Below, piece after piece: positions 5,765 through 15,789 of a DNA stretch of 43,940 nucleotides. The notes below the pieces were generated by a model. That model was not told the origin of the DNA, searched no databases, and saw only the letters and a list, made by a program, of their open reading frames with translations. The stretch is from contig JAJRYD010000016.1 of NCBI GenBank assembly GCA_024275955.1, positions 1 to 43,940 of the forward strand, read 5' to 3'. The position numbers and the translations under genes are program-made. Within the stretch, counting starts at the first letter, position 1. Each line of letters opens with the position of its first letter. The stretch is from Nitrospirota bacterium (GTDB taxonomy: Bacteria; Nitrospinota_A; UBA7883; JACRGQ01).

Positions 5765-7327
5765 TTAAACATCCGGCAGGACGGCCGCTTTCACCTTTTC
5801 CTTCATTTTGCCGTCTATACGGGGGAAAAGCGGTTCGCCGGCGCTTATTACGGCTCCCGGTTTCATCCCTCCCCAGCTGTCACTGCCGTAATTCCCTTTT
5901 TCCAGCCCTATCTGGAGAAGAAGCTTTTCCATAGAACCGGGCATTACAGGCAAAAGCATACGGCCTATATACCGGATAGACTCCACCACGCCGTAAAGCA
6001 CATCATCTAGTATTTCTGATTTCGATTCGTCTTTTGCAAGGTTCCACGGCTCGCTCTCGACAATAAAACCGTTTACAATGTCGCAAAACGATATCACCTC
6101 GTCGAGCGCCTTGTTTATCGCTGTCTGCTCCAGATGCTTCGTGTAGCTGTCAATCGCCTTTTCAGCCGCTTTTTGGAGGCTTGCGGCAGTATCTGTGCCG
6201 GACGGTTTCGGCAGTTTGCCGCCGCGGTATTTAGAAACCATTTTGAGCGAACGGGAAACGAGGTTGCCGAAATTATTGGAGAGATCTACATTTATTCTGG
6301 AGACAAGGCCGTCCACGCTGAAATCGCCGTCAGAACCAAACTGTATCTCCTTCATAAGAAAGTAGCGGAACTGATCCAGCCCAACAGCCTCTTTAACCCG
6401 CAAAGGCTCCACCACGTTGCCTAGCGACTTGCTCATTTTCTTCCCTTCTACCGTCCACCATCCATGCGCGAATATTCTTTTGGGCAGAGGCAGTCCGATA
6501 GCTTTTAGCATCGTTATCCAGTAGACGCAGTGGGTGGTGAGGATATCTTTGCCGATAAGGTGCAGGTCTGCCGGCCAGATGTTTTTAAACCTTTCGCCAT
6601 CGCCCCTAAAACCGGCCGCGGATATATAATTTTGCAAAGCATCGAACCAGACATATGTAACGTAGTCTTTATCGAACGGCAGTTCCACGCCCCACGACAT
6701 TCTCGACTTCGGGCGTGATATGCAAAGGTCGTCCAGCTCTCTATCGAGAAAACCTAGCACTTCGTTGCGTCTTGATTTCGGAGCGATGAAATCTTCGTTC
6801 GCCTTTATGTAGTCGATAAGCCACTGCTGGTGTCGGCCCATTTTAAAAAAATAGTTTTTCTCTTTTATTCTGTCTACTTTTCTTCCGCAGTCGGGGCAGT
6901 TGCCGTCTACTAGGTCTTTTTCCATCCAGAACCTTTCGTCCGGCACGCAGTACCAGCCTTCGTATGTATCGTCGTAAATCTCGCCTTTTTCGTAAAGTTT
7001 CTGCAATGTCTCCCGCACCACTTTTAGATGCCCCGCGTCTGTAGTTCTTACGAAGTGATCATGCGAGATGTTCATCTCTTTCCAAAGGTTTTTGAAAATT
7101 TCGCTATGAAAATCGACATGCTCTTTTACCGACTGACCTTTCTCTTTAGCCGCTTGGTCGGCTTTTTGCCCATGCTCGTCCGTGCCTGTAAGAAAGAATA
7201 CCTCTCTCCCTTCCATTCTGTTATAGCGGGCGAGAAAATCTGCCGCTACCGTGGTGTAGAGATGCCCTATGTGAGGTTTATCGTTCACATAGTAGATAGG
7301 CGTGGTTACATAAAACTTTTTTGCCAT
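5765..7327 (-). CDS. metG: methionyl-tRNA synthetase
   Basis: Class I aminoacyl-tRNA synthetase that charges tRNA-Met and initiator tRNA. The HIGH motif is PHIGH at residues 18-22 and KMSKS is at 297-301. A zinc-knuckle region (CPDC at 144-147, with an earlier Cys at 127) sits in the connective domain, followed by the alpha-helical anticodon-binding domain with W/N-rich helices. At 520 aa it lacks the C-terminal tRNA-binding/dimerisation extension found in longer MetRS, as in many bacteria. It begins 32 bases after the ricT-like gene on the same strand. The holB-ricT-metG order is a known conserved neighbourhood, best known from Firmicutes. Confidence 0.95.
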   Translation of the reverse strand: MAKKFYVTTPIYYVNDKPHIGHLYTTVAADFLARYNRMEGREVFFLTGTDEHGQKADQAAKEKGQSVKEHVDFHSEIFKNLWKEMNISHDHFVRTTDAGHLKVVRETLQKLYEKGEIYDDTYEGWYCVPDERFWMEKDLVDGNCPDCGRKVDRIKEKNYFFKMGRHQQWLIDYIKANEDFIAPKSRRNEVLGFLDRELDDLCISRPKSRMSWGVELPFDKDYVTYVWFDALQNYISAAGFRGDGERFKNIWPADLHLIGKDILTTHCVYWITMLKAIGLPLPKRIFAHGWWTVEGKKMSKSLGNVVEPLRVKEAVGLDQFRYFLMKEIQFGSDGDFSVDGLVSRINVDLSNNFGNLVSRSLKMVSKYRGGKLPKPSGTDTAASLQKAAEKAIDSYTKHLEQTAINKALDEVISFCDIVNGFIVESEPWNLAKDESKSEILDDVLYGVVESIRYIGRMLLPVMPGSMEKLLLQIGLEKGNYGSDSWGGMKPGAVISAGEPLFPRIDGKMKEKVKAAVLPDV

Positions 7328-7359
7328 TTTAACTATTTATGGAAGCTCTTTGGGTTTCA

Positions 7360-8418
7360 TTAATCGGAAGGAGCCGGCCTCTCTCCCTCTGGTTTAGGCT
7401 TGGAGGCTGGCGATGGTGTATCGCCTCTGCCTGAGGAGCTATTGGCATCCACCGCTGGCGGTCTGCCGCTTTTACTGGAAGCTCTGCCGTCTCTACTAGG
7501 CCTCGCCCCTTTGCCGGCACCTCTTTCACTGCTTTTCTGCTTGCCGCCTTTTCCTTTTTTGCCAGGCTTTCTCTGCTGTTGTTCATGTTTTATTGTTGAT
7601 ACGGATGAAGCCTCGAAGGTTTCCCTTTTGTCATCACCAAGATAAACAGTAACCTTTGACCGCAGGTAGTCGGCAACTATAACCTTTCCCCTGCCATCAG
7701 GCGTATCTACCGTTTTGCCGACGCGGGGAACCACTTTCTGCATCTCCTTGTAAAAGGAGTTTTCATAATTAAGGCAACACATAAGCCTTCCGCAAGCGCC
7801 GGAAATCTTTGATGGATTGAGGGAAAGCCCCTGATCCTTTGCCATCCGTATAGAGACCGGAGAAAAGTCCGTAAGAAAGGAAGAACAGCAAAGCTTCTGG
7901 CCGCAGACACCGGCTCCCCCCATCATCTTCGCCTCGTCTCTGGAGCCTACCTGACGCATCTCCACTCTAACATCGAGTTCCTTCGAAAGAGATTTCACCA
8001 TACTTCTAAAATCTATCCGGCCGTCTGAAGTGTAGGAGATAATCGCCCTTTTTTCATCGTAGGTAACTTCTACATAGCTTATTTTCATTTTCAGCTCGCT
8101 ATCGCTTACTTTACGCGAGGCTATCGAGTTAATCTCCCTCTCCTTTTCACCTATACGGTTATACGACTCCTCGTCATAGGATGTCGCTTTTCTTATTACG
8201 TTCCTCAGCCGTCCCGCCTTTTTATGGCAACAACTCTTGCCCCGAAACTTCATTTTTGCCCTAGCAACACTGCCTATAGCCGGCCCGCGCTCACTGTCGA
8301 CCACGCAAAGGTCGCCGACAGAAAGGTTTAGATGGTTGCATCTGTAATCTTCCGGCTTCGCGGAATGCCGAAAACTTACCGCGATTGTAAAATCTTCTTC
8401 AATAACGTCACTCTGCAA
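7360..8418 (-). CDS. ricT: PSP1-domain protein, RicT/YaaT-like
   Basis: 352 aa. The PSP1 domain spans about residues 30-265 and carries the Cys-rich motifs GVCGQKLCC and GACGRLMCCLNYE. In Bacillus RicT such cysteines bind an iron-sulfur cluster, and RicT acts in the Ric complex that aids RNase Y-dependent mRNA processing. RNase Y itself is encoded at 40878. The C-terminal ~85 residues are low-complexity, rich in Lys, Gly, Ser and Pro, and probably disordered and RNA-binding. I chose the TTG at 8418 because AGGGAG lies 6 bases upstream and it overlaps the holB stop by 11 bases. Reading further upstream gives non-conserved sequence that is the shadow of holB. Confidence 0.85.
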   Translation of the reverse strand: MQSDVIEEDFTIAVSFRHSAKPEDYRCNHLNLSVGDLCVVDSERGPAIGSVARAKMKFRGKSCCHKKAGRLRNVIRKATSYDEESYNRIGEKEREINSIASRKVSDSELKMKISYVEVTYDEKRAIISYTSDGRIDFRSMVKSLSKELDVRVEMRQVGSRDEAKMMGGAGVCGQKLCCSSFLTDFSPVSIRMAKDQGLSLNPSKISGACGRLMCCLNYENSFYKEMQKVVPRVGKTVDTPDGRGKVIVADYLRSKVTVYLGDDKRETFEASSVSTIKHEQQQRKPGKKGKGGKQKSSERGAGKGARPSRDGRASSKSGRPPAVDANSSSGRGDTPSPASKPKPEGERPAPSD

Positions 8419-13650: not shown

Positions 13651-14166
13651 ATGAAGAAGACACTGTCGCTATTATTAGTAATAGCAATTTTGCCGTTACT
13701 GCCGTCGTGCGGATACACAATGTCGGGACAGGCGACAGGGCTGCCGGAAGAGATAAAAACTGTCGCGATTACAGTTTTCGAAAATAACTCATTGGAGCCT
13801 AATATAGAAGCAGGAATAACAAGAGCTATCATAGACCAGTTTACAAGCGACGGCCGGCTGAAGATAGTTCCCGAAAAAACAGCAGACTCCGTGATAAGCG
13901 GGGTTATAAACAGTTACAGCATAGAACCGCTGGCATACGATGCCAACTTCGACGTAACCGCGTACAGAAATTCGGTATCACTAAGCTTCGAGTTCAATGA
14001 CCAGCTAGGCCTCGGCATAAGTTATTCAAGCACCGTTAGCGCTCAGTCCGCGTATTCAGTTTCAACATCTATGGTAAGCACCGAATCGTCGCGCCTTTCG
14101 GCTTTAACAACAATCGGCTCTACCGTCGGACGCAGTATCGTCGGTATTCTATTGGAGAGTTTTTAG
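13651..14166 (+). CDS. lptE: LPS-assembly lipoprotein LptE
   Basis: 171 aa lipoprotein. It has a signal sequence with lipobox LPSC (Cys at residue 20) followed by GYTMSG, as in LptE/RlpB proteins. The body has alternating beta/alpha pattern (TVAITVFENNSLEP, TRAIIDQFTSDGRL) typical of the family. LptE plugs the LptD barrel and helps insert LPS in the outer leaflet. I chose the ATG at 13651 because GGAGAG lies upstream and the signal peptide begins there. The next gene, hflX, is in the same frame directly after the TAG stop. Confidence 0.82.
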   Translation: MKKTLSLLLVIAILPLLPSCGYTMSGQATGLPEEIKTVAITVFENNSLEPNIEAGITRAIIDQFTSDGRLKIVPEKTADSVISGVINSYSIEPLAYDANFDVTAYRNSVSLSFEFNDQLGLGISYSSTVSAQSAYSVSTSMVSTESSRLSALTTIGSTVGRSIVGILLESF

Positions 14167-15789
14167 ATAGCACATAATATTCACGGAAACAAAAGCGGGC
14201 TTAGAAATGCCGACTCCAAGAGCCTCCTTCGGCTCTACCACAGGAAAATAGCCCCCGGCAAACTTGTAACCGACGACATCCTCCTCTACATATCACGCCT
14301 TTCAAGAGAACTTGGAAAACAGATTGCGGTAATCGCCGATAGAGGAGGAAAAATAACCGACGTGATCATCGGCGACGACAGGCAGATAGTTATACCCGAG
14401 CTTACACGGTTTAGAAAAGGGAGCTCCCGCCTTACAGGTCTTCGGTGTATACATACGCACATCAAAGACGAAGCGATGACGCAAGACGATATCAACGATC
14501 TTCTTTTATTAAGGCTCGACGTTATGGTAGTCGTTAATGTACTGCCGGACGGCAGTGCGGGGAAAATTACCTTAGCGCATATATCAGCCGAGACTAAAGG
14601 CAAACGGTACCTTGTGCATGGGCCCGACAGCCTTGAAAAAATCGAGACGCTGTACAGCGGCCTTATATCGCAAATAGAAACCGAACTCGAAAGAAAGGCA
14701 ACCCCTACAGCCGTTAAAGGAAAGCAGAAGGTAATGCTTATCCATGTTTCCAGCGCCAGACAAGAGGAGATGCAGTCTTCACTTGATGAGCTTGAAGAGC
14801 TGGCAAGAACCGCGGGAATGTATGTGGCCGACTCTATAACGCAAAAAAGACCGCGCCCAGACCCTAAATATCTTATCGGTAAAGGCAAATTGAAAGATTT
14901 TATGATTCAGGCACTCTCGCACGACATAGACCTGCTTATCTTCGATACCGAGCTTACCCCGGCGCAGATAAAATCTATAGCAGACTTTGCCGATATAAAC
15001 GTTATCGACAGAACGCAGTTAATACTAGGCATCTTTGAAAAACGGGCTAACAGCAGAGATGGCAAGGTGCGTGTAAAACTTGCGCAGATGAAATATCTAC
15101 TGCCAAGACTTTCGGCAAAAGAAAGCGCACTCTCGCGCATAAGGGGCGGTATCGGCCTTAGAGGCCCGGGCGAAACTACGGCGCAGGTTCAAAAAAGAAT
15201 GCTCGAAACAAAAATCACAAAGCTTGAAAAGGAGCTTATAGAGTTTGAAAAACAAAGAGAGGTAAAACGGAGGGCGAGGATAAGATCCGGCGTTAAAATT
15301 ATTTCAATAATCGGCTATACAAACGCCGGCAAATCGACACTCCTTAACCGGCTTACCGGAAGCTCGCTATTCGTGGAAGACCTGCTGTTCGCAACGCTAG
15401 ACCCAGCGGCACGCAAACTGCGCCTGCCGGGCGGAACAAACGTGGTGGCAAGCGATACCGTAGGGCTTATACGCAACATGCCGGAAAGCGTGGCCGGCGC
15501 TTTCCGCGCGACGTTCGAAGAATTGGAAGAATCTGATTTGCTAATAAACCTTATAGACCTTTCCGACCATAGTTTCGAAAAGCATATAAAGACGACAGAA
15601 AAAACTCTGGAAGAGCTTGGCCTAAATAAAATCCGCCGGCTTACCGTCTTTAACAAAACCGAAAAGCTGGAGAAGGAAAATACCGAAAACATCTGCGAAC
15701 GCCACGATGCTATCGCTATATCGGCCAAAGAGGGCAAAGGGATAGGCAAACTTTTGATGAGAGCGGAGGAGATGCTGGGGGAAGGATAA
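14167..15789 (+). CDS. hflX: GTPase HflX with extended N-terminus
   Basis: Ribosome-associated GTPase that splits stalled 70S ribosomes. GYTNAGKST (G1, about residues 382-390), DTVGLI (G3) and NKTEK (G4) are all present, with the HflX-specific N-terminal domain containing RPDPKYLIGKGK. Conserved coding sequence continues upstream of the first standard start codon (GTG 14362). HGNKSGL, LYHRKIAPGKLV and ELGKQIAVIADRGG match the long form of HflX. In frame there is no ATG, GTG or TTG between the lptE stop and 14362. GGAGAG (14154-14159) sits 7 bases before an ATA at 14167, so an AUA start giving 540 aa is my best reading. An ATT at 14179 is the second choice. Confidence 0.78.
   Translation: MAHNIHGNKSGLRNADSKSLLRLYHRKIAPGKLVTDDILLYISRLSRELGKQIAVIADRGGKITDVIIGDDRQIVIPELTRFRKGSSRLTGLRCIHTHIKDEAMTQDDINDLLLLRLDVMVVVNVLPDGSAGKITLAHISAETKGKRYLVHGPDSLEKIETLYSGLISQIETELERKATPTAVKGKQKVMLIHVSSARQEEMQSSLDELEELARTAGMYVADSITQKRPRPDPKYLIGKGKLKDFMIQALSHDIDLLIFDTELTPAQIKSIADFADINVIDRTQLILGIFEKRANSRDGKVRVKLAQMKYLLPRLSAKESALSRIRGGIGLRGPGETTAQVQKRMLETKITKLEKELIEFEKQREVKRRARIRSGVKIISIIGYTNAGKSTLLNRLTGSSLFVEDLLFATLDPAARKLRLPGGTNVVASDTVGLIRNMPESVAGAFRATFEELEESDLLINLIDLSDHSFEKHIKTTEKTLEELGLNKIRRLTVFNKTEKLEKENTENICERHDAIAISAKEGKGIGKLLMRAEEMLGEG

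Follow-up and report, generated by a model that had tools for sequence, protein, structure and literature searches.

An apparent AUA start codon of long-form hflX and its counterparts AUA, AUU and AUC across many bacterial families

The lptE–hflX junction

The window analysed here is a 43,940-nt stretch of DNA from a Nitrospirota bacterium (GenBank assembly GCA_024275955.1, contig JAJRYD010000016.1, positions 1 to 43,940), in which a gene for the lipoprotein LptE is followed directly by a gene for a long form of HflX. Throughout, AUH denotes AUA, AUU or AUC, and NUG denotes the canonical starts ATG, GTG and TTG. The junction comprises the following features.

13651..14166, plus strand: lptE, LPS-assembly lipoprotein (Pfam PF04390, E = 5.4e-13), with its stop codon TAG at 14164-14166
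14154..14159, plus strand: Shine-Dalgarno-like GGAGAG within the 3' end of lptE, 7 nt before ATA
14167..14169, plus strand: AUA, the probable hflX start codon, with no in-frame NUG from the stop to 14362 and with AUH in relatives from the same phylum
14167..15789, plus strand: hflX, long form, 540 aa (TIGR03156, PF13167, PF16360, PF01926)
14167..14724, plus strand: N-terminal domain of long-form HflX, about 185 aa, defined by alignment and without a Pfam, NCBIfam or PDB match
14362..14364, plus strand: GTG, the first canonical start codon, judged to be an internal Val codon and not a start, with 65 domain residues upstream
14728..15774, plus strand: HflX core, the GTPase region common to E. 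coli-type HflX (TIGR03156, residues 188-536)

The two genes share a reading frame, and ATA 14167 abuts the TAG of lptE with no gap; the hflX frame is open from this codon to the stop at 15789. Profile search placed the product in the HflX GTPase family, residues 188-536 matching TIGR03156 at 399.5 bits against a cut-off of 216.75. The original prediction had stated that hflX contains no in-frame ATG, GTG or TTG before GTG 14362 and that GGAGAG lies 7 bases ahead of ATA 14167, and direct reading of the sequence confirmed both points, which are the marks of an AUH start. Around the start site (14137-14196), no RNA structure beyond chance was predicted (z = 0.0).

The N-terminal domain encoded from ATA 14167 onwards was found in 88 of the 385 genomes surveyed. 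As the original prediction had proposed, a conserved HflX N-terminus lies ahead of GTG 14362: an alignment of 16 diverse HflX proteins revealed invariant residues in the domain (G7, G11, R26, S46, R59 and G61), invariant positions occur on both sides of the GTG codon, and the domain profile starts a few residues from AUA. Searches of Pfam, NCBIfam and PDB sequences with the domain yielded no model or relative, which would help to explain why start callers could go wrong at hflX. An AlphaFold prediction of HflX from a two-row alignment reached a pLDDT of 46.7, with values below 50 throughout residues 1-186. A conserved stretch of the domain reading HTHLxxEPLSxDDL (window 14452-14490, HflX residues 96-108) resembles, one residue short, the JAMM/MPN metal motif HxHx(7)SxxD; no profile matched it. 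In one genome of the same family, an open frame of 896 aa directly upstream of hflX (G002:C40, approximately 6332-8329, minus strand) contains four tandem copies of the N-terminal domain.

AUH codons at the same register in relatives

To read the start in other genomes, hflX was anchored at the N-terminal motif G-N-x-x-G-L and every in-frame codon was read back to the preceding stop. The window's own phylum was taken as Nitrospinota, of which 22 genomes were read. The original prediction had proposed to check whether aligned relatives carry a normal start codon at the register of 14167; all 22 genomes have AUH (ATA in 13, ATT in 5 and ATC in 4) at codon -6 or -5, and a canonical start occupies this slot in none of them. 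In several, the stop touches the AUH codon or sits within a few codons of it, so that an upstream start is impossible there.

The pattern extends well beyond the phylum. With a phylum that we label cyanobacteria-like, a name given by inference, excluded from the main count, AUH was the only candidate in 100 of 132 genomes, representing 50 of 70 families. All three third bases are in use among these 100 genomes (ATC 42, ATA 29, ATT 29), and in 92 of them the codon lies at -5 or -6 relative to the GN motif. In 78 genomes of 43 families, the whole interval from the in-frame stop to the domain is free of NUG. Judged by the sequences compared, the AUH start of hflX is apparently a feature kept across many families and not a rarity of one strain. 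It is not obligatory, however, and the trait can be lost or gained, because 24 of the 132 genomes have a canonical start at the same slot.

A tree of 162 N-terminal domains, built with a fast model from roughly the first 100 residues and giving approximate change counts, implied at least 37 changes among ATA, ATT and ATC versus at least 12 between AUH and ATG, indicating that AUH is kept while its third base drifts. The codon is conserved as AUH and not merely as an Ile codon, since A, T and C interchange where no other start is available. Were the four bases used equally, ATG should have been reached more often than it was.

We then scored Shine-Dalgarno matches, defined as at least 4 bases at a usable distance. 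Such a match precedes 93 of the 100 AUH codons versus 16% of 3,600 in-frame control codons from the same genes. It was present at 113 of 131 AUH hflX genes versus 4 of 18 ATG hflX genes (Fisher P = 5e-8), a difference that may partly reflect lineages sparing in Shine-Dalgarno use. Three genomes of the own phylum (G002, G004 and G012) have no match of at least 4 bases at hflX. As a negative control we read der, another GTPase gene with a conserved N-terminus, alike in 30 of the same genomes: der has a canonical start in 29 of the 30, and hflX has AUH only in 25 of the same 30. In the 25 genomes that allowed both genes to be scored, the Shine-Dalgarno match was found at 22 hflX AUH codons versus 10 der starts (P = 0.0009).

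The positive control was infC, the classic AUH gene, which carries AUH in most of the readable genomes of the same set. Two genomes (G113 and G201) have hflX with AUH, yet infC apparently starts at ATG and TTG, respectively. The infC gene of the window genome (G000:C18:69900-70390, L176, minus strand) shows no clear start; its codon aligned with the starts of relatives is ATC, without a Shine-Dalgarno sequence, and GAGGAGAG is located farther upstream.

The cyanobacteria-like genomes combine an infC with ATG and an hflX whose start is AUH or ambiguous. Two places before the conserved AUH of hflX, a few of these genomes have ATG or GTG and others have ACG, GCG, CTG or AAG, and translation could begin at AUH or at a near-cognate codon such as ACG. 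Just upstream of the hflX start, an inverted repeat such as GGCCAGTTAACTGGTC is conserved at seven loci (L203, L204, L208, L217, L221, L223 and L226), and codon -7 of these leaders varies among ACG, GCG, GTG, ATG, CTG and AAG. The hairpin predicted from this repeat was not stronger than in shuffled sequences.

A few genes depart from the pattern. Two long hflX genes (L068 in G342 and L077 in G080) lack NUG as well as AUH at this position, and may start at CTA or ACG behind a Shine-Dalgarno sequence. Most of the sampled short HflX genes, which lack the N-terminal domain, start canonically. One genome encoding a long HflX also has a short second one (L288, G047:C71) with an apparent ATA start behind AAGGAG, so that the AUH trait may not be confined to long HflX.

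IF3-sensitive synthesis of HflX and alternative readings

AUA 14167 is almost certainly the start of hflX, as the original prediction had suggested: it is the best candidate in the window, and the relatives strongly support it with AUH at the matching register, nearly always behind a Shine-Dalgarno sequence. We consider it probable that this start, its Shine-Dalgarno sequence and selection for a poor codon together make HflX synthesis sensitive to IF3 in the manner of infC. In such a scheme, GGAGAG would place AUA 14167 on the 30S subunit, where the ordinary initiator tRNA would read it with a third-base mismatch. A good Shine-Dalgarno sequence followed by AUH would make initiation hinge on the strictness of IF3 proofreading. 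HflX would normally be low, and its output would rise when there is little free IF3 for the 30S subunits present. Selection would maintain the poor codon, through which the splitting factor HflX would be coupled to the supply of its partner IF3. In the window genome, ribosomes that finish lptE would stop right at AUA, and coupled re-initiation may add to this.

Several published observations bear on this model. IF3 represses non-canonical starts, by which infC sets its own IF3 level, and it also represses the GUC start of Streptomyces sigR (PMC5472188). AUA starts are used in vivo by infC and ccpN of S. aureus, the ccpN AUA giving approximately 10–30% of the output of AUG in reporters (PMC13009471). 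HflX splits 70S ribosomes, and its proposed site on the 30S subunit resembles that of IF3 (PMC4770234), the anti-association factor that keeps free 30S subunits apart in ribosome recycling (PMC9067457). The infC-like arrangement of Shine-Dalgarno and AUH, repression by IF3, and the roles and sites of HflX and IF3 together lead us to propose that HflX synthesis is tied to IF3 availability. By this analogy, control of AUH hflX genes by IF3 is rather likely. Points against the model are the canonical starts that some lineages have at the slot, the AUH codons of hflX and infC that do not always occur together, the three own-phylum genomes lacking a Shine-Dalgarno match, and the infC gene of the window genome, whose start is not clear. 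An ancient, widely conserved regulon of hflX and infC, in which scarce free IF3 raises both products and balances splitting against anti-association at initiation, is a more tentative extension that we hold to be possible.

The main rival accepts AUA as the start and holds that it sets only a low, constant level of HflX, with IF3 carrying no regulatory signal. The ATG lineages mostly lack a Shine-Dalgarno sequence, as if low output were sought by either route, and GTG or TTG make up 11 of the 29 canonical hflX starts (cyanobacteria-like genomes included), as this reading would have it. However, a weak Shine-Dalgarno sequence would suffice for low output, while that of AUH hflX is stronger than that of der and reproduces the architecture of infC. 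We regard a merely low, constant level as unlikely, though it is the most serious competitor of IF3-sensitive synthesis.

The other alternatives deny that AUA 14167 is the start, and each of them is far less probable. The in-frame AUU 14179 (Ile5) is also a permitted weak start codon, but it has no Shine-Dalgarno sequence at a usable distance in the window, and its column is generally hydrophobic in relatives (Val, Leu or Ile, with GTG in G003 and G004), while the column upstream of it holds AUH in every own-phylum genome. For want of a usable Shine-Dalgarno sequence and a conserved codon column, we rejected this very improbable start. A truncated product from GTG 14362, which the original prediction had kept as an alternative for its first canonical start codon, fared slightly worse: it would lose the first 65 residues of the conserved domain, a stretch with residues invariant across families, and the profile of that domain begins close to AUA. 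We rejected it on account of these upstream residues.

Readthrough of the lptE UAG into an LptE–HflX fusion, also raised in the original prediction, draws on the shared frame and on the stop that abuts AUH in the window, a layout repeated in G006 with TAA. It did not survive comparison with the relatives, where frame and adjacency are not conserved. In G005, G008, G009 and G010 the frame of the lptE-like end differs from that of hflX, and in other families the stop is TAA or TGA and gaps separate the genes, whereas AUH and the Shine-Dalgarno sequence are conserved whatever lies upstream; moreover, a GTPase that binds ribosomes would be exported or anchored if fused to a lipoprotein. We consider this reading scarcely credible. 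An error turning ATG into ATA, conceivable in a draft genome of 56 contigs, is just as implausible and is refuted as a general explanation by AUH at the same place in independent genomes, including the single-contig assemblies G283, G572, G516 and G552.

Comparison with known non-AUG starts

The searchable literature yielded no account of hflX starting at a non-AUG codon, and to our knowledge infC is almost alone in having a conserved AUH start, pcnB, ccpN and sigR (GUC) being isolated further cases. The kind of start is already known; the gene and the breadth of its distribution appear to be new. The AUH start of hflX suggests an old, apparently unreported link by which ribosome splitting would follow the state of the translation machinery. 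A second AUH gene, present in at least 43–50 families and coding for a protein that splits ribosomes, points to a general principle by which IF3 would control genes of ribosome recycling, testable in cultured species. For annotation, gene finders limited to ATG, GTG and TTG would in many genomes place the hflX start wrongly and drop a conserved domain undescribed in Pfam and NCBIfam.

The gene infC is the textbook example of an AUH start, with autoregulation by IF3. Like hflX, it has a strong Shine-Dalgarno sequence, an AUH codon with A, U or C as third base and a distribution over many families, and its product acts on ribosomal subunits. Its product is IF3 itself, however, whereas control of hflX by IF3 would operate in trans and would not be autoregulation. 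In E. coli, a chromosomal AUU start limits the expression of pcnB, according to Binns and Masters 2002 as cited in PMC13009471; pcnB encodes a different protein, and the AUH start of hflX occurs in dozens of families. The ccpN and cvfC1 genes of S. aureus (AUA and AUU) resemble hflX in having a conserved AUA or AUU with an extended Shine-Dalgarno sequence (PMC13009471), but their range is narrower, cvfC1 being conserved within Staphylococci and ccpN between S. aureus and B. subtilis, compared with at least 43–50 families for AUH hflX. Direct proof that IF3 represses a gene other than infC via its start codon comes from sigR of Streptomyces (PMC5472188), which differs from hflX in that its start is GUC, it belongs to one lineage and it encodes a sigma factor. 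The short HflX of the E. coli type shares the GTPase core (TIGR03156) and is without the 185-aa N-terminal domain. Judging from the distribution of its start codon, hflX is apparently a broadly conserved addition to the infC/pcnB/ccpN class of non-AUG starts.
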